Positions 1-7,106 of a stretch of DNA of 63,002 nt are shown here, piece after piece. The stretch's first letter is position 1. Each line of letters opens with the position of its first letter. The translations under genes and the position numbers were made by a program. Under the pieces are notes generated by a model. That model saw nothing but the letters and a program-made list of their open reading frames with translations. It was not told where the DNA came from and made no database searches. Location: the NCBI GenBank assembly GCA_012840075.1, contig DUMC01000110.1, positions 1-63,002 on the forward strand. The letters run 5' to 3'. Origin of the DNA: Clostridiaceae bacterium (lineage in GTDB: Bacteria; Bacillota; Clostridia; Acetivibrionales; DUMC01).

Positions 1-984
1 ATTTTCCCAGTCATGCTGGGGAATTTCATCAAAATGAAACTTGAAAGGAACCTCTTCTTTACTTTCAAGTTTCTCTTTTTGTATGGGGAAATTTTTCATG
101 TAAATGCAATCATTGTTTCTATTAAAAAGTTTTACATCTACACTTATATTTGAAGCAGGTCTTTTTCCGGAATTGAATAGTTTTCCCTCAAAGGTTAGAT
201 AATTGGTATCGCTGTCTATATAGTATTTTACATAAACAACTTGTACTTTTGTTTTAGGAAATTTAATTTCTCCTTCAAGGAAAATGGAATTTTTTTGTTC
301 ACTATTTGCATCTATAAGGTATTCCCTGTCTTTTTCCTGCCTGCCGTCAACCAGATCCTGAACGAGGGGGATAAGTCTATCTCTGTCTATAAGCGTTATT
401 GAGATATTATGTGCCTCATTAATTGCTTCAGGGTCAAAATAACTATTGGTTATTATAAGGCCTTGTTCACAATGGTAATAGTTTGCTATATACCTTAATT
501 GTCTGATGGTTTTCAGACCGATAAGATTTCCGGGCTCGCTTTTAATAGCCAATACGGCAATCTTTATATCTTTACGGTGAATAATTATATCTATATTGTT
601 TAAATTGTATAGAGGTACAAAAAGAATATCATATCCGAAATGAACAACAATCTGCTTAACCAAGGCTTTAAATTTTACAGGGTTTAAAGAATCTATATCC
701 AATAATTCGGAAGATTTATATGAATCTCTGATTCTGCTTAATACAATGGAATCTATATATCTTGAAAGCTGGATTTTTTTCTTAAGTTCCTTGGATTCAT
801 TGAGAAGATCATGTTTTGAATTTATATCATCAATGATTCTCTGGATTTTTTTGTCATCATATTTTTTGCGAAGATAATTCATCACACATCTTTTAACAGC
901 TTCCATATCACATTTTTCATTCGTATCAATATTCTGTTCCACATATATTTCTAGCAATTTTTCCCTTAAAGAAGAGGGCCTCAT
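1..984 (-). CDS. Mrr-like restriction-endonuclease-fold protein, partial (C-terminus outside window)
   Basis: The frame is open from an ATG at 984-982 to the window edge (328 codons, no stop), with an AGGAGG ribosome site just upstream. Residues 1-85 are helical and charged. Residues about 95-210 resemble the Mrr_cat/PF04471 fold: a helix ending in a GYD-type turn (VVHFGYDI), a strand with NNIDIII, then VLAIKSE at the place of the usual QxK motif, and later GLIITNSYFDPEAI, which matches the conserved G-x-hydrophobic-T segment of Mrr proteins. Asp and Lys are kept, but the Gln before Lys is Ala, so activity is uncertain. Residues about 255-320 look like a beta-sandwich of the FxLYD kind. It starts 43 nt after the Cys-rich gene and is probably the third gene of the SNF2 operon. 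Role: inferred DNA-binding or nuclease partner. Confidence 0.65.
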   Translation of the reverse strand, partial: MRPSSLREKLLEIYVEQNIDTNEKCDMEAVKRCVMNYLRKKYDDKKIQRIIDDINSKHDLLNESKELKKKIQLSRYIDSIVLSRIRDSYKSSELLDIDSLNPVKFKALVKQIVVHFGYDILFVPLYNLNNIDIIIHRKDIKIAVLAIKSEPGNLIGLKTIRQLRYIANYYHCEQGLIITNSYFDPEAINEAHNISITLIDRDRLIPLVQDLVDGRQEKDREYLIDANSEQKNSIFLEGEIKFPKTKVQVVYVKYYIDSDTNYLTFEGKLFNSGKRPASNISVDVKLFNRNNDCIYMKNFPIQKEKLESKEEVPFKFHFDEIPQHDWEN

Positions 985-1027
985 TTTTATTAATTCCTCC
1001 TGATGGTAATATTACTAATAAAACTGT

Positions 1028-3010
1028 TTAATTAAGCAGCTTTGACTTTAAAAATTCAAACCAGTTAATTCTCCTAACTGATATTATCTTCTTATTATTA
1101 TCAAATACTACCAAATATCCTCCCATAATATTTCTTGCATATAGTACATTTATTTCATTTGCTTGACCCAGGTAAAACTTCTTGTATTTCCCAATCTGTG
1201 GCACATGATCAATTATATGGCGGATTATCTCATGGTTTTTATCTATATGCTTGAGACTTTCACATGCTACGCATATACCGTTATCGTTGATACAGGACGG
1301 ACAGTACATTTCTCTGCAGAGCCTGCACTTAACACTGGGCGTACAAGTGCAATAGTCTTTACCGCAGGACTTGCAGTGATTAATATGTTCCGAACAATAC
1401 TTTTTATTACAGTTACTGCAGGTTTTTATGTGATCAGGACATAATACAATGTTACATAATGTACAATTTTGCAGTTCATCAAGGGCAAATATGCCATTAC
1501 ATTCATTACATTTACCTGCATGCTTTTCACATATTATTTTCTGGCTGTATTGGGATTTTAGTGCATGTTTTTCACAAAGCACATCATTGCATTTTGAACA
1601 ATAAAATGCGTGTTCATCGCAGTTAGTCGTATTGCATACCACACATTTATGAATATGATCCGAGCATACATATGAATTACAAGTGCTACAAGTATATGCA
1701 TGGTTGTTGCATATTGTATTATCGCATATATGACATATTTCGTAACAATCAATACAAAAAACATTTCCGCAGGTAGAACACCTATAACTATGAGAAGGAC
1801 AAACGACTGCACCACATGATGTGCACTGCGTAGTACAATCAGCGCAAACCAGTTCCCCACAAGTTGAGCAAATATAACTTTCATCATCACATACACTACA
1901 CATAATCTTATTACATGCACTACAAATATCCATGCAGCTTTTGCATATTACATGACCTTTATCACAAATTGCGCCTACGTCAATTTCTTCATTGCAGTCG
2001 GTACACCTAATATCTATGCGATTTAAGAATATTTCCGCTGGTATTTCTATTTCGTTATTGTTATTTTGTTGCTTAAAAATAAGATTTCGCAAATCTTTTA
2101 CAGTATGCAGCAATATCACATTAGTTAGATGGTAATCGCAGTTAATTGCATAACCTCTTAATTCTCTTTCACACAGCCTGAGTCCTTCTTCTTGCAATTC
2201 ATCAAGTTGCTCTAACGTACTCTTGGTATAATTTTCAATATATTCTTCTTCGTATTTATCAATTATTGATTTAATTTTATCTTTTAAAGTGTCTTCAATT
2301 TCTTTCTTAAAAACATCAAGCTGGTTTTTGACAGCCTTATGGGCTTCATGCCTTGCTATATTTAAGAAACTTTGGTATACTTTTTCATCTATAGGTGTTT
2401 GCACGGACGAATCTTTTAATTCTATGCCTGTAATTCCGTCAAAACATATATCTCTTATTGTTTTCTTTGTTTTCATATCGATGAGAACTGAAACGAACTT
2501 TTCAACTTTTTGACTGAGAGTGTAATCGTTAGATAATTCTACTAAGAAAATAAAGCATATTATGTCTAAAGGTTGGGATTTTTTTAAATCTCCAAGCTTT
2601 AAAAATTCTGCATTTAAAATAGTTGTATTGCAGGAATTATAGTAAGTGCAAAAATCACAGCACTTATTTTTATTTTCGCAAATATTAAAAAAGGGACAGA
2701 GATCACAGCAATCCTTGGGACAAAAAGCCAACCTTACAGTATCATCGTTATATATGGCATCGACTTCCGAATACCCACCGATCTGGGTACATTCTCTTAT
2801 CATATTATTAAGTGCGGCACTACCTTTTGCCAACAAGGTTATATCCTTATTTTCAGCAGCGACCCTGGCAATATAAGTGAAAGCTTCCTTTACTCCATTT
2901 GCATGTTTAACTACAAAATAGGTATTATGCTTTTCAATAATTGATGCGCCTTTTATATTAAAATAGCTTTCCACGAACTTATGAAGTTGCGTATCATAAA
3001 CTGTACTCAT
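1028..3010 (-). CDS. Cysteine/histidine-rich tandem zinc-binding repeat protein (660 aa), function unknown
   Basis: No named family is recognised. Residues 1-95 are a small alpha/beta region. Residues about 98-130 hold nine cysteines in a compact cluster (CPKDCCDLCPFF and following). Residues about 150-330 are mostly helical and coiled-coil-like. Residues about 332-585 form a long array of units of the form C-x2-C-x4-C-x2-[H/C]-x3. At least seven consecutive units have a period of exactly 15 residues (for example CSTCGNVFCIDC, CHICDNTICNNH, CSTCNSYVCSDH), which implies stacked zinc sites. A short C-terminal globular tail ends in a strand-rich stretch. No signal peptide or membrane segment is visible, so it is probably cytosolic. 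It lies 93 nt after the SNF2 helicase gene and 43 nt before the Mrr-like gene on the same strand. It may be the adaptor or nucleic-acid-recognition subunit of that module; this is inference. Confidence 0.8.
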   Translation of the reverse strand: MSTVYDTQLHKFVESYFNIKGASIIEKHNTYFVVKHANGVKEAFTYIARVAAENKDITLLAKGSAALNNMIRECTQIGGYSEVDAIYNDDTVRLAFCPKDCCDLCPFFNICENKNKCCDFCTYYNSCNTTILNAEFLKLGDLKKSQPLDIICFIFLVELSNDYTLSQKVEKFVSVLIDMKTKKTIRDICFDGITGIELKDSSVQTPIDEKVYQSFLNIARHEAHKAVKNQLDVFKKEIEDTLKDKIKSIIDKYEEEYIENYTKSTLEQLDELQEEGLRLCERELRGYAINCDYHLTNVILLHTVKDLRNLIFKQQNNNNEIEIPAEIFLNRIDIRCTDCNEEIDVGAICDKGHVICKSCMDICSACNKIMCSVCDDESYICSTCGELVCADCTTQCTSCGAVVCPSHSYRCSTCGNVFCIDCYEICHICDNTICNNHAYTCSTCNSYVCSDHIHKCVVCNTTNCDEHAFYCSKCNDVLCEKHALKSQYSQKIICEKHAGKCNECNGIFALDELQNCTLCNIVLCPDHIKTCSNCNKKYCSEHINHCKSCGKDYCTCTPSVKCRLCREMYCPSCINDNGICVACESLKHIDKNHEIIRHIIDHVPQIGKYKKFYLGQANEINVLYARNIMGGYLVVFDNNKKIISVRRINWFEFLKSKLLN

Positions 3011-3103
3011 GTTTCCTCCGTCTTTAATGTCGTACCTAAAATTTATAGATTAATCATGTTTGGATTGATAGATTAAACAGCTTTGATTTAATTATAAATT
3101 GCT

Positions 3104-5092
3104 TCAATCCAATATACTTTTTGAGAATTCTTCTCTTAGAGCATTTTGTTCTTTAATATAGTCCATACTTTGCCTTAATTCATCAAGTTCTTTTTCAATA
3201 TCCCTTCTCCTTGATGAACGCATGATAATTTCCATTATTGTTTCTTCAATACTGAAATCACCGTCTCTTATTTCTGAAAGGATAGTTTCAATTCCTCCTA
3301 TGGTCATTTTAAACAAATCAATTTTTTCAAATAAAACTTTTAATACATAGTCATCAATCGTATCTTTCATAACCAGATTGAAAATTGTTACATCCTTGTT
3401 TTGACCTCTTCTGTGTACTCTGCCGATTCTTTGCTCAATTTTCATCGGATTCCAGTGAAGGTCATAATTAATGACTATGCTGGCGTTTTGCAAGTTCAAA
3501 CCTTCAGCTGCAGCATCAGTAGCTACAATATACTGAATTTTACCGCGTCTGAATTCATCTATAAGGGATTGCCGTTCGAATCCTGAAAGACGGCCTTCAT
3601 ATACTCTGGCTTTTATATAGTTTTCATTTAAACTGTCACAGAGAAGATATGCAGTTTCCAGTCTCAAAGTGAATATTATTCCCTGTTGATGTGAAAGACT
3701 ACTTACTGTTTCAAGCAGTTTTTGAACTTTGGAATAAGTACCGATTTCCGAAGCCAGTTCTATAATCGGATCAATAAGGTAAGCTTCTTCAGGATTTTTC
3801 AACTTTCTGTTTTCCAAGCTCTTTATTAAAGCCCTTGGACTGCTGGAAAGAGATTGTTGTATTGTTATCAGTTCCTTCATTAGCAAATAGTTTACCTTTC
3901 TTTTAGGCAAAGAACTTGGTAAGCTTAATTTTCTGTCATTATTTAATGATAAAGACTTTTGAATTTTTAAGTCAATATTGGCATTTAGCTGGCTTTTATC
4001 AAAATTAAGGATCTTGTCAACCAACTGCATTCTTCCTGTTTGAGAAGAATTATTGTTATTGTCGTTATTTTTATCTACGCTGTTTTCATATATTTTTCTC
4101 ATGTATTTAATTACCGTATCATATAGCAAAAGTTCTTCTTTTGAACAGTTAATCCTGTGAGAATAAACGAATCTTTCCGTAAACGGTATCCCACTGTCTT
4201 TCCTCAGCGTACGAACCATTACCTTTGAAATTATTTTTTTCAGTTCATCTTTCATTTCCGGGCGGCATATTCTTCCGTAGCGATCATAAAAGTACTTGCT
4301 CTTAAAACTTTTTTCCGTTCCAAGGATTCCGGGGTATAACAAATCTACAAGGCTATAAATATCAGTAAGTTTATTACATAACGGTGTAGCAGTGCAAAGA
4401 AGCATATATCTTCTGTCTATAGCGCTTACAGCTTTACGCCTTTTAGAATTTGCGTTTATCAAAAGGTGGGCTTCATCCACTACAACCATATCCCATTGCC
4501 TGTTGGTAAATTTTTCAACATTTCTTGATAATTTATTAAAAGAAGTAATGATTCTATTACTGCTATAATCAAAATTATCATCCTCTGTGGTAATAAATTC
4601 CTCATCGAATTTTTCCTTTAGCTCTTCTTTCCATTGAAGTACAAGAGCTTTAGGAGTAATTATCAATATAGAGTGAATATTACCCCTAACAATATGTTCT
4701 TTCAAAATTAGACCTACCTCGATAGTTTTTCCAAGCCCGACTTCATCAGCCAATAATGCAATGCTGGATTTTTCCCTTAAAACGTTCAAGGCAACCTTTA
4801 ATTGGTAAGGGTAAGGTTCCAAGCGCCCGTCAAGGAGATCCAACGTTGATAAGTTATCTATTTTACCTGTCTTCATAAGGTTAGCTGCCATCAAACTTAG
4901 CTTCAACCAGTCGGAAGAATAGTTGCAACTACCCTTTTCAACTTTCGAAGTAATCTTATTATCATCATAGAAAGAACTATGGACAGGAACAAGATCAATG
5001 AGAAGTCCTGCATTATTGCTTCTTTGCTTTATACTTATTAATTTTTGGTTAGTAAATCTTGGTACTAAGCTTTCTTGGATGCTGACTTCCAT
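3104..5092 (-). CDS. SNF2-family (RapA/HepA-like) DNA helicase/translocase
   Basis: This 662-residue protein has the full superfamily 2 SNF2 motif set: Walker A DEVGLGKT at about 116-123, DEAH at about 206-209, motif III CTATP at about 233-237, and in the C-terminal lobe ATDAAAEGLNLQ (about 520-530) and QRIGRVHRRGQ (about 555-565). SNF2 enzymes translocate on double-stranded DNA using ATP. Short members like this one occur in bacteria as RapA-type remodelers or as motors of restriction and defence systems such as DISARM. No SWIM domain or methylase is attached. It is the first gene of a minus-strand trio with the Cys-rich array protein and the Mrr-like protein. That context favours a DNA-targeting role over RNA-polymerase recycling, but this is not proven. 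Confidence 0.9.
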   Translation of the reverse strand: MEVSIQESLVPRFTNQKLISIKQRSNNAGLLIDLVPVHSSFYDDNKITSKVEKGSCNYSSDWLKLSLMAANLMKTGKIDNLSTLDLLDGRLEPYPYQLKVALNVLREKSSIALLADEVGLGKTIEVGLILKEHIVRGNIHSILIITPKALVLQWKEELKEKFDEEFITTEDDNFDYSSNRIITSFNKLSRNVEKFTNRQWDMVVVDEAHLLINANSKRRKAVSAIDRRYMLLCTATPLCNKLTDIYSLVDLLYPGILGTEKSFKSKYFYDRYGRICRPEMKDELKKIISKVMVRTLRKDSGIPFTERFVYSHRINCSKEELLLYDTVIKYMRKIYENSVDKNNDNNNNSSQTGRMQLVDKILNFDKSQLNANIDLKIQKSLSLNNDRKLSLPSSLPKRKVNYLLMKELITIQQSLSSSPRALIKSLENRKLKNPEEAYLIDPIIELASEIGTYSKVQKLLETVSSLSHQQGIIFTLRLETAYLLCDSLNENYIKARVYEGRLSGFERQSLIDEFRRGKIQYIVATDAAAEGLNLQNASIVINYDLHWNPMKIEQRIGRVHRRGQNKDVTIFNLVMKDTIDDYVLKVLFEKIDLFKMTIGGIETILSEIRDGDFSIEETIMEIIMRSSRRRDIEKELDELRQSMDYIKEQNALREEFSKSILD

Positions 5093-5542
5093 TGAACTTT
5101 GCCCCCCATGTATTTCCTGTTTTCAATATAAATTCAAGTATTACTGTCATAACTGATCACACCGGTATACAAAAAATAAATATATAAAAGATAATAATTT
5201 TATCCAAACTAAACATTTATTTATATTTTAGCATTTATAAAGAATTATTTTTAATTAGTATAATAGACTGAATTCTGAACTCTTTTTGTACATATTATAC
5301 AAAAGTCGATGTTATATTTTTTTTGCGGCTGGTAATATTACAATTAGATTAAAAATTGATGAAAAAACAAGAAAAATAATGCATTTTGGTATAAATTGAT
5401 ATAAAATTTATAAAGTAAAATATGGTATTTTTAAGTTTTCTGATTTTTAATTATTAAAAATTGCCTGCATAAAAAGATACATTTTTATGTTTAGGAAAGA
5501 GAAATTTGCTCGGTTCAAAATCTATTTTTTTGAGGGAGATTT
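5093..5542. other. Divergent intergenic region, about 450 nt
   Basis: This AT-rich stretch separates the minus-strand SNF2 operon from the plus-strand amidase gene and must hold both promoters. I see no ORF, RNA gene or strong hairpin in it. The GAGGGAGAT ribosome site at about 5532-5540 belongs to the amidase gene. Confidence 0.5.
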
Positions 5543-7003
5543 ATGAGAAGACTAAAAAAGTTATTTGCCATCTTAATGAGTGTGATAATTATTACATCAT
5601 GCAGCTTAAGTCTATATGCTGACGCAAGCCCTTTATATGCATTTCTTCAGAGCATAGTGCATGTTATTTACGACGAATATGAGGTTGTTACCGTAACTTT
5701 TAATGCACATAGGGATATTAATGTTTTTCCGCTAACGTCACCAGATAGAATTGTGATTGATGTAAATTATTCATTGCTTAAAGGAAAACCACAGATCATC
5801 AGCGGTGGAAATTTGGTGAAATCCATTAGATACGCCCAGTATGATAAAAATATCGTAAGAGTGGTTCTCGATACAAACGGAAAGCAGGAATATCAAGTTA
5901 AACAGGAAAATAATATTATAAAGGTGTATGTTGGCAGTTTAAACAGCGGAAATAAAAACACAGCACAAAATAGCCAAGACAATGGCAGCCATGACAATAG
6001 CGAACAGCAATCCGAACGGCAATCTGACAGGGATCAGGACGGTCGTGGAGAAATAGCGGACAGAGGAGTTAGCAACAGAATCATCAATACTTCGATATCG
6101 AAAAATCTTTTTTATAACAATACAGGAGACAGGGTGTACTTATCTATAAAGGATTCCCTTCTTACAGAAGGGGGAGAGAATTACAAAAAGTTATATACAG
6201 AAAAATACAGTGATGACGGACTTACTTATACAATAACTTTTAGCAGTACGTTAGCAAAGCTTGATGCCGGAACTATAGAAATAAACGATAGATACCTGGA
6301 ATCAATAACTATAACAAAGACCCTGCTCCCTTTGCAAACCAGCATTAAATTCAAAGCCAAGGATAAATTCGTATATCACGTTATGGGAAGGACTCAGACA
6401 AAAGATACAAATATAACAATACTTAAGCCTGCATCATCAAATGATAAGCTTGTAGTTATTGATGCAGGACACGGAGGATCAGAACCAGGTGCAATATATA
6501 AAAACATGATAGAAAAGAATGTGAATCTCGATATAGCTTTAAAATTAAATGAGCTTTTGAAGAAAAACAATATCAACACATACATGATAAGGGAAGATGA
6601 CAGTTTTGTAGGTCTTTATGAAAGAGCTTATATAGCAAATAAGCTTAATGCGTCATTGTTTATAAGCATTCATAACAATGCACTGGAGAATAATCCATCA
6701 TTTGACGGTACAATGACATTGTATTCTATTAATAAAAAGGAAAGCAAACAATTTGATAGTTATGACTTTGCCAATATTTTGCAAAAAGGATTAATTAACG
6801 ATATAGATACAAAAGATAGAAATGTTAGAGAGAGAGATGACCTTGTTGTCCTGAGAATGACGGAAATGCCTGCGGCGTTGGTTGAAGTTGCTTTTATTAC
6901 CAATGCAAATGACAGAGCGAAATTACAAAGCGAAGAATTTAGACAAAAAGTTGCCCAATCTCTTTGCAATTCCATTATTAAAGCTCTTTCGGAAGTCAGA
7001 TGA
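5543..7003 (+). CDS. N-acetylmuramoyl-L-alanine amidase with AMIN domain
   Basis: This secreted zinc amidase would cleave the amide bond between N-acetylmuramic acid and L-alanine in peptidoglycan. Residues 1-27 are a signal peptide (MRRLKKLF, a hydrophobic stretch, then YADA). Residues about 40-135 match an AMIN domain, which binds the cell wall. A low-complexity Asn/Gln/Asp/Ser linker follows (about 138-170), then a second AMIN-like beta region, and from about residue 307 an Amidase_3 catalytic domain. The zinc ligands are visible in order: His and Glu in DAGHGG and MIEKNVNLD, His in SIHNN, and the catalytic Glu in ALVEVAF. The ribosome site is GAGGGAG. A terminator follows. It stands as a single gene. 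It could serve in growth or in sporulation and germination; the sequence does not decide. Confidence 0.93.
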   Translation: MRRLKKLFAILMSVIIITSCSLSLYADASPLYAFLQSIVHVIYDEYEVVTVTFNAHRDINVFPLTSPDRIVIDVNYSLLKGKPQIISGGNLVKSIRYAQYDKNIVRVVLDTNGKQEYQVKQENNIIKVYVGSLNSGNKNTAQNSQDNGSHDNSEQQSERQSDRDQDGRGEIADRGVSNRIINTSISKNLFYNNTGDRVYLSIKDSLLTEGGENYKKLYTEKYSDDGLTYTITFSSTLAKLDAGTIEINDRYLESITITKTLLPLQTSIKFKAKDKFVYHVMGRTQTKDTNITILKPASSNDKLVVIDAGHGGSEPGAIYKNMIEKNVNLDIALKLNELLKKNNINTYMIREDDSFVGLYERAYIANKLNASLFISIHNNALENNPSFDGTMTLYSINKKESKQFDSYDFANILQKGLINDIDTKDRNVRERDDLVVLRMTEMPAALVEVAFITNANDRAKLQSEEFRQKVAQSLCNSIIKALSEVR

Positions 7004-7062
7004 TATTTTTTTAATATTTTACAAATTAAATATTCATAAATATACCGGACATTCGTAAAGTG

Positions 7063-7106
7063 AAAAAAACCCTATTCATTGAAATGAAGTGAATAGGGTT
7101 TTTTTT
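7063..7106 (+). terminator. Rho-independent terminator after the amidase gene
   Basis: CCCTATTCA at 7070-7078 pairs with TGAATAGGG at 7090-7098, followed by eight T residues. A run of A before the left arm makes it potentially bidirectional. Confidence 0.9.

Follow-up and report, generated by a model that had tools for sequence, protein, structure and literature searches.

What do the three genes at the left end of this clostridial contig encode, and is the product a nuclease-based defence system? The window analysed here, the whole stretch of 63,002 nucleotides of contig DUMC01000110.1 from a Clostridiaceae bacterium, begins with three genes on the minus strand: gene 1 (3104..5092, 662 amino acids), assigned by Pfam matches, motif strings, and phmmer to SNF2 ATPases of the YqhH (RapA/HepA-like) kind; gene 2 (1028..3010, 660 amino acids), encoding a YqhG-like head followed by a zinc array and a tail; and gene 3 (1..984, 328 codons), encoding a helical N-terminal part, a probable Mrr-fold pseudonuclease, and a C-terminal beta domain. 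Gaps of 93 nt (genes 1/2) and 43 nt (genes 2/3) separate them, as a sequence-only reading had stated, and its descriptions of an SNF2 protein with all motifs, a 660-residue protein with a 15-residue Cys/His period, and an Mrr_cat-like protein are likewise confirmed by the data given below. Profile comparisons and gene neighbourhood identify genes 1 and 2 as a diverged YqhH-YqhG pair, in which a motor resembling RapA/HepA is joined by a protein that is so far uncharacterised. We lean slightly towards a role for the trio as an elaborated YqhH-YqhG complex that would clear nucleoprotein or survey DNA with the help of a pseudonuclease, and away from Mrr-dependent restriction.

Gene 1 matches Pfam families PF00176 (3.4e-37) and PF00271 (3.5e-26) and carries seven motif strings in order (DEVGLGKT, TPKAL, DEAH, TATP, IIFT, AAEGLNLQ, and QRIGRVHRRGQ), which we take to represent individual SNF2 helicase motifs. 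These matches show the motor motifs to be intact at the sequence level, in a predicted RapA/HepA-like SNF2 ATPase. An SNF2 frame adjoining a full-length YqhG gene (L038) was matched by phmmer at 1e-83. The scores of gene 1 against named family models were far below the cut-offs, with 146 bits for NCBIfam RapA (NF003426, cut-off 576), 243 and 190 bits for the DISARM DrmD models (cut-offs 950 and 610), and 184 bits for the DpdE equivalog (cut-off 500). Its best matches among the PADLOC models were DrmD, BrxH, and HmaA, with ZorD further down the list.

The closest solved-structure sequence match of gene 1 is RapA (E 8.7e-35), which points to another possible, though rather unlikely, role as a dedicated transcription factor complex, in which a RapA-like recycler of RNA polymerase (RNAP) would contact RNAP through the solenoid of gene 2 and an Rpb5-like Mrr fold. 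Passages of PMC7385302 call YqhH HepA or RapA and place it among RNAP-interacting translocases, and the structural model of gene 3 has a weak Foldseek match to Rpb5 (E 0.009-0.02), which may mean a shared fold alone. E. coli RapA resembles the trio in combining a Swi2/Snf2 motor with a degenerate restriction endonuclease (REase)-like domain after the motor, as described in parts of PMC12839542. It differs in being one chain of 968 amino acids (L083), its branch among the SNF2 proteins of the tree is very long, and gene 1, besides its low score with the RapA model, is without RapA's additional length.

The head of gene 2 (approximately residues 1-330; 2021..3010, minus strand) has long helices near its end and was related to YqhG by hhalign. 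Against a set of 18 YqhG-type partners it gave E 2e-8 over 145 columns with a score of 64.2, the maximum of the shuffle control (60 column-shuffle readings, up to four of them repeats) being 22.1. The window thus has an SNF2 gene adjoining a YqhG-related gene, and it shares with YqhH-YqhG pairs both this adjacency and a head homologous by profile. The partner protein of genome G441 is an intermediate, since it scores above the Pfam YqhG cut-off and runs on into the same Cys array as in the window. Alignments reveal an extra Cys cluster in the window head (residues 101-127; 2630..2710, minus strand), which is kept in the related genomes G002 and G017 and absent in G441. Full-length Pfam YqhG frames (L072, L074) differ in having 266-272 codons and no array, and the window Mrr protein had no phmmer match in these two regions.

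YqhG matches at E<=0.1 were obtained in 39 of 249 genomes of the phylum, 25 of them above the Pfam cut-off; Bacillus subtilis, whose YqhG is above the cut-off and whose YqhH is also named HepA/RapA, served as the control genome. All but one of the 20 best YqhG loci have an SNF2 frame next to them, the exception (L043) starting 54 bases from a contig end; among 20 wider, largely overlapping YqhG regions the figure is again 19, the exception being a weak YqhG match in G496. Pairs of an SNF2 gene and a YqhG-type partner without array or Mrr are present in many genomes. In two genomes the pair is one reading frame: a frame of 1798 amino acids in G715 joins SNF2, a YqhG-like part, and repeats, and one of 1069 amino acids in G771 joins SNF2 to a YqhG-like part with a zinc cluster. 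These fusions support a physical complex of SNF2 protein and partner.

A second YqhH-type SNF2 gene is present in several genomes (L109, L111, L112, and L114; G454, G534, G621, and G645), where one of the two adjoins a YqhG-like protein ending in a zinc cluster; in G454 and G534, a single contig carries both pairs, at a distance of about 25 kb. The yqhG of E. coli papers, and probably that of PMC12646430, was set aside as apparently sharing only its name with the gene treated here.

Downstream of the head, gene 2 encodes a predicted zinc-binding solenoid (residues 336-583; 1262..2005, minus strand) of about 16 units (248/15) with the pattern CxxC-x4-Cxx[H/C]-x3, delimited by periodicity, alignment, and AlphaFold. 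Its 248 residues include 51 Cys and 12 His, and many unit Cys are invariant in all four aligned proteins. Cys-Cys pairs at lag 15 number 32, compared with a mean of 10.0 and a maximum of 19 in 500 shuffles, so the 15-residue period is beyond chance. The AlphaFold model of gene 2 is zinc-free, was built from two input sequences, and has a mean predicted local distance difference test score (pLDDT) of 51, with the head and first array units poor; within it, the array reaches 81-92 per block over residues 411-530, compared with 38-51 over residues 331-390. The C-terminal tail domain (approximately residues 600-660; 1031..1213, minus strand) is modelled as four strands and a helix with pLDDT 76-81 per block over residues 591-650, and it is weakly similar to the tails of the archaeal relatives described below (hhalign probability 27, E 7e-4). 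Searches of gene 2 against solved structures by sequence gave matches at E>0.02 only, mostly to zinc-binding proteins, and Foldseek found no solved structure at E<=0.001, the best being a PINCH LIM domain (7.6e-3).

The same Cys and His counts could suggest a zinc storage or metal-sensing protein placed next to an SNF2 gene by chance, a reading that we consider highly improbable in view of the repeated SNF2 linkage, the single-frame fusions, and a ligand-depleted array of the same period in G715. The repeats of this fusion keep the 15-residue period in 31 of 40 spacings between pattern matches. When 32 of its units are stacked, T or S occupies the second Cys position in 31 (the pattern permitted only T, S, and C), and the third ligand position, which was free in the pattern, is Leu in 21, with Cys outside the five commonest residues. 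Since ligands are shed while the period is kept, the array is best read as a structural solenoid rather than a metal store. Its length ranges from 229 to 809 amino acids across seven proteins; a repeat able to change its length more than threefold and to shed ligands without losing its period would be unusual as a natural scaffold. The G715 fusion, from whose repeat most metal ligands have been lost, lies at L108:2126-7519 (G715:C57).

Gene 3 belongs to the Mrr_cat family by its Pfam score (PF04471, 1.1e-15, 58.2 bits, gathering cut-off 21). In the Mrr_cat domain (364..696, minus strand), delimited by alignment and Foldseek fold matches, D132 is kept and QxK is replaced (L145-A-I147), so the window protein does not carry the PD-(D/E/Q)xK residues of an Mrr restriction endonuclease and is probably, judging from the alignment, a pseudonuclease whose cutting site was lost. 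Alignment with E. coli Mrr, which keeps its active-site residues, indicates that QxK is lost in six of seven module copies (the window, G002, G017, G001, Halorhabdus, and Haloferax), and this loss in the window and five of the six other copies makes the label 'nuclease' doubtful. Four Mrr comparators (G261, G134, G201, and G086) were left out, G261 being in the wrong frame and G201 and G086 having been preselected by an [EQ]xK pattern. The active site was placed by this multiple alignment, as hhalign of the window Mrr group against E. coli Mrr alone was uninformative (probability 1).

The gene 3 model has a mean pLDDT of 62, with 53-87 in the Mrr-core blocks. Foldseek matched it to MspJI and AspBHI at E 2e-5 to 6e-5 with TM-scores of just 0.20-0.30, and to AF1548, also with a low TM-score; a glycosidase, one of the six matches at E<=0.001, was rejected as unrelated. 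No nuclease was found among solved-structure sequences (best E 0.054). Gene 3 therefore shares a fold family with modification-dependent restriction enzymes of the Mrr/MspJI type and differs from them by the loss of QxK in most module copies. The beta-rich C-terminal domain (residues 247-318; 31..246, minus strand), recognised from model strands, is possibly FxLYD-like (NCBIfam FxLYD 13.9 bits, below the cut-off of 23).

The third subunit appears to be exchangeable, with an Mrr-fold, Helicase_C_3, or coiled-coil protein predicted at related loci. In G441 the third gene encodes a Helicase_C_3 protein (7.3e-23), and in three genomes of family f122 it encodes an unrelated protein of 481-495 codons after a zinc-cluster YqhG. 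The f122 proteins (L117:5943-7385, L116:7810-9294, and L118:5941-7395) show a coiled coil and membrane helices by eye, with no Pfam match in the two of three that were scanned.

We then asked how widely the trio is distributed. Gene 2 is present in all three genomes of the window's family, its own included, and among 391 genomes of the class its true matches were its own genome and G017; matches in G064, G145, and G154 were rejected as chance, their frames differing from the evident genes and two containing stops. The order SNF2, zinc array, Mrr-like is repeated in three other genomes of the class (G002, G017, and G001), one belonging to another family and one having broken genes. Identities to the window in G002 and G017 are 80 and 71% for the SNF2 protein, 63 and 47% for gene 2, and 67 and 43% for gene 3. 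Within the window's family the module faces common right-hand genes, with one additional gene adjoining SNF2 on the right side in G001 and G002, and in G017 it lies at a different genomic site. At the G001 locus (L013:19-5105; G001:C250), the SNF2 and array genes are in pieces, reflecting real decay or an assembly error. A search with the array alignment gave matches in 15 of 398 phylum genomes: the window, G441, ten YqhG-like proteins with a short zinc cluster, the G715 fusion, and two Cys-rich proteins. The ten short-cluster proteins have SNF2 adjoining, or in frame in G771; the Cys-rich matches (G659 and G682) were not counted as pairs, there being no SNF2 gene in the examined stretches.

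Among plasmids, tblastn with gene 2 against 72,556 records yielded three matches, all from haloarchaea: Halorhabdus tiamatea, Halocatena salina, and Haloferax lucentense. On each of the three, the array gene has an SNF2 gene upstream of it and, downstream, a gene labelled 'restriction endonuclease' that matches Mrr_cat. The array proteins have 1095, 676, and approximately 1243 residues, respectively, with arrays of 632, 243, and 809 amino acids, or roughly 42, 16, and 54 units of 15 residues. Their heads match YqhG by hhalign at E 7e-13 and the partner from a Nostoc plasmid at 1e-7. Gene 3 itself gave no tblastn match among the plasmids, though the archaeal plasmids hold a diverged Mrr. Three related plasmids, of the haloarchaea Haloarcula, Halorientalis, and Natrinema, carry the pair of SNF2 and partner, with partners below 400 amino acids. 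Homologues of the three genes thus occur together and in the same order in three other class genomes and on all three plasmids, rather than mostly apart or in a single lineage beside unrelated genes, as the sequence-only reading would have required for its proposal of one system to fail.

Several smaller features of these plasmids were noted. On Haloferax lucentense pSVX82-3 (NZ_CP104744.1), the 1243-codon array frame (L086:6217-9945) is without a PLSDB gene entry, and three short hypothetical genes are given on the opposite strand instead. On the Haloarcula sp. CBA1115 plasmid (L087:1-10746), DUF499 and DUF1156 genes are found near the pair, and the DUF1156 gene matches HmaB models (2.1e-36). 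In L084 and L086, a small hypothetical gene and the divergent ResIII helicase gene stand ahead of the trio, and proteins without a Pfam match, alike by eye, follow it (L084:12338-13021 and L086:10968-11861).

A role in defence is possible, and it ranks as the main rival given that the archaeal forms reside on plasmids, in two of three cases with helicase genes nearby; we nevertheless think it unlikely on present evidence. The motor would scan or remodel invading DNA, the solenoid and tail would recognise it, and the Mrr-fold subunit, which would be active in some members, or a recruited host nuclease would act on it. The sporadic occurrence in the class, the plasmid location of all three matching archaeal trios, the intact active-site residues of the Halocatena Mrr, and the PADLOC matches of gene 1 all fit this role. 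In Halorhabdus and Haloferax, a divergent ResIII-type helicase gene precedes the trio (Pfam E 1.7e-22 and 1e-21), and helicase genes, UvrD genes among them, lie with transposases within about 30 kb, together with a PD-(D/E)XK nuclease gene in Haloferax. In its helicase part, the helicase beside these two trios resembles PbeA models of Pbe (CxC/DndE) defence, whose gene set is pbeABCD; in a scan of eight proteins, which covered a minority of the neighbours, PbeB-D gave no match at E<=1e-5.

Against a defence role, gene 2 had no match to a PADLOC model (E up to 1 for the window, up to 1e-5 for Halocatena), gave no tblastn match in 50,697 phage records at 1e-5, and had no confirmed relative in viral-contig scans, while the window Mrr is a probable pseudonuclease and gene 1 falls far short of the DrmD cut-off. 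No methylase or defence gene was recognised beside the clostridial loci, where open reading frames (ORFs) were read by eye and not family by family. The expectation of neighbouring defence genes is not supported by this reading of the clostridial loci. The trio is a conserved module, as the proposal of a DNA-targeting or defence system implied, whereas the nuclease in its parts list is the doubtful part.

Named systems share individual components with the trio. DISARM combines DrmD with drmA/B/C and a methylase, and BREX (BrxH) and Dpd (DpdE) likewise contain SNF2 motors related to gene 1; partner genes of these three systems were not recognised nearby by eye, and reading the ORFs of L011 and L012 by eye revealed no DISARM partner genes. 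In Zorya, ZorD is one chain acting with ZorAB. It resembles the trio, according to its PADLOC description, in combining a SWI2/SNF2 helicase with an Mrr-like nuclease, whereas the trio has separate genes and most copies have lost QxK; ZorA and ZorB were not recognised in flanking ORFs read by eye, without a family-by-family scan. A literature search of titles and abstracts found no description of the SNF2, zinc-array, and Mrr trio and no experiment on it. The earlier statement that no named system has this set therefore holds, within that search, for the trio and not for genes 1 and 2: the pair is already known, and what is new is the 15-residue zinc solenoid and the Mrr-fold third gene.

To place the trio in evolutionary terms, an SNF2 tree of 45 rows was built. 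It unites the window with G002 and G017 (100/99), and the three archaeal trio carriers form a clade inside a six-row archaeal clade that includes the three pair carriers. The ten short-cluster rows (99/99) and 22 zinc-less rows, including those beside full-length YqhG (99/97), are also clades. A constraint grouping the six trio carriers, tested on 43 rows with G715 and RapA removed, was rejected (p-AU 1e-5), as was one group of these six with G441 (p-AU 8e-57). The trio carriers are therefore not one clade, and the trio either arose on two or more occasions or dates back to an ancestor and was lost many times, unless the partner genes moved separately; the tree is compatible with either.

A bolder proposal, which we put forward tentatively and regard as unlikely as a whole, is that of a hitherto undescribed cross-domain machine of SNF2 motor, zinc solenoid, and pseudonuclease, with a variable arm of about 15-54 units between translocase and gripper, acting in haloarchaea as a mobile anti-element system and reached at least twice or ancestral and repeatedly lost. 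If true, an arm of the G715 type, largely stripped of metal ligands, would belong to the same expandable solenoid.

For the elaborated YqhH-YqhG complex that we lean towards, the following mechanism can be envisaged. The SNF2 motor would translocate on double-stranded DNA, and the YqhG head would dock on it, as the single-frame fusions of G715 and G771 suggest. The solenoid would act as a stiff arm or binding surface that keeps the tail, together with the Mrr-fold subunit, at a distance from the motor, and this subunit would grip DNA or a DNA-bound complex without cutting, by analogy with the degenerate REase-fold domain of RapA. The outcome would be the remodelling or clearing from DNA of nucleoprotein such as stalled RNAP or foreign nucleoprotein. 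The zinc-solenoid, Mrr-fold, fusion, and archaeal forms together yield a testable hypothesis for YqhG as a motor-bound adaptor. PMC12839542 describes RapA and BrxHII alike as having, behind the motor, REase-fold domains that are degenerate or inactive, and coupling SNF2 to such a fold may be how these motors generally grip DNA.

A number of observations speak against this proposal. The window head scores 14.3 bits with Pfam YqhG (PF11079, cut-off 25), compared with 43.8 for the G441 partner, so gene 2 is a diverged YqhG relative and not a Pfam-level member. Between the window head and the archaeal heads hhalign gave no direct signal (probability 1.4), and the homology link therefore passes through YqhG. 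The plasmid location of the archaeal copies fits defence equally well. The Halocatena Mrr keeps GVD...QAK, so that at least one member may cut DNA. Clostridial copies have K or R one residue past the aligned K position; a shifted A-x-K register would retain Lys, still without Gln/Glu. Published data on the motor fall on both sides. According to PMC10054049, Bt YqhH hydrolyses ATP and acts as a helicase in vitro, and yqhH deletion reduces survival after 30 min of ultraviolet (UV) irradiation, with no UV effect at 60 min and total helicase activity unchanged. For B. subtilis, parts of PMC7385302 report that loss of hepA (yqhH) alone did not reduce viability at the H2O2 and methyl methanesulfonate (MMS) doses used and did not suppress the lethality of PcrA depletion, and that with MMS survival was lower in a PcrA-degron background.

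Finally, we examined the locus itself. Base 1 of the window is base 1 of the contig (G000:C88), so the sequence is readable rightwards only and gene 3, whose frame runs without a stop codon up to the contig end, is incomplete at its 3' end; its orthologue in G002 has 343 amino acids, which indicates that about 15 residues are missing. The proposed position between housekeeping regions is supported on the right, where an AMIN amidase, a GerMN-type protein, RdgB, and a phosphoesterase were named by eye, and on the left the contig ends. In each of the three genes, the changes relative to G002 and G017 fall mainly on third codon positions (0.25, 0.15, and 0.52 at positions 1, 2, and 3 for gene 3 compared with G002), a pattern expected of maintained proteins. 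On this codon-level evidence the clostridial module is under purifying selection, and it is placed among what appear to be ordinary genes. Gene 1 and the divergent amidase gene are separated by an A+T-rich intergenic region (5093..5542) without an ORF of at least 80 amino acids, in which the module promoter is presumed to lie; promoter-like sites in 1-7100 number 43, hardly above the 36.0 (standard deviation 5.8) in shuffles. Elsewhere in the window's genome (L014:326-3994; G000:C169), a second Mrr_cat gene (4.2e-35) is followed by an SNF2/helicase frame of 909 codons, the first part of which resembles phospholipase D by eye, possibly a separate defence locus.

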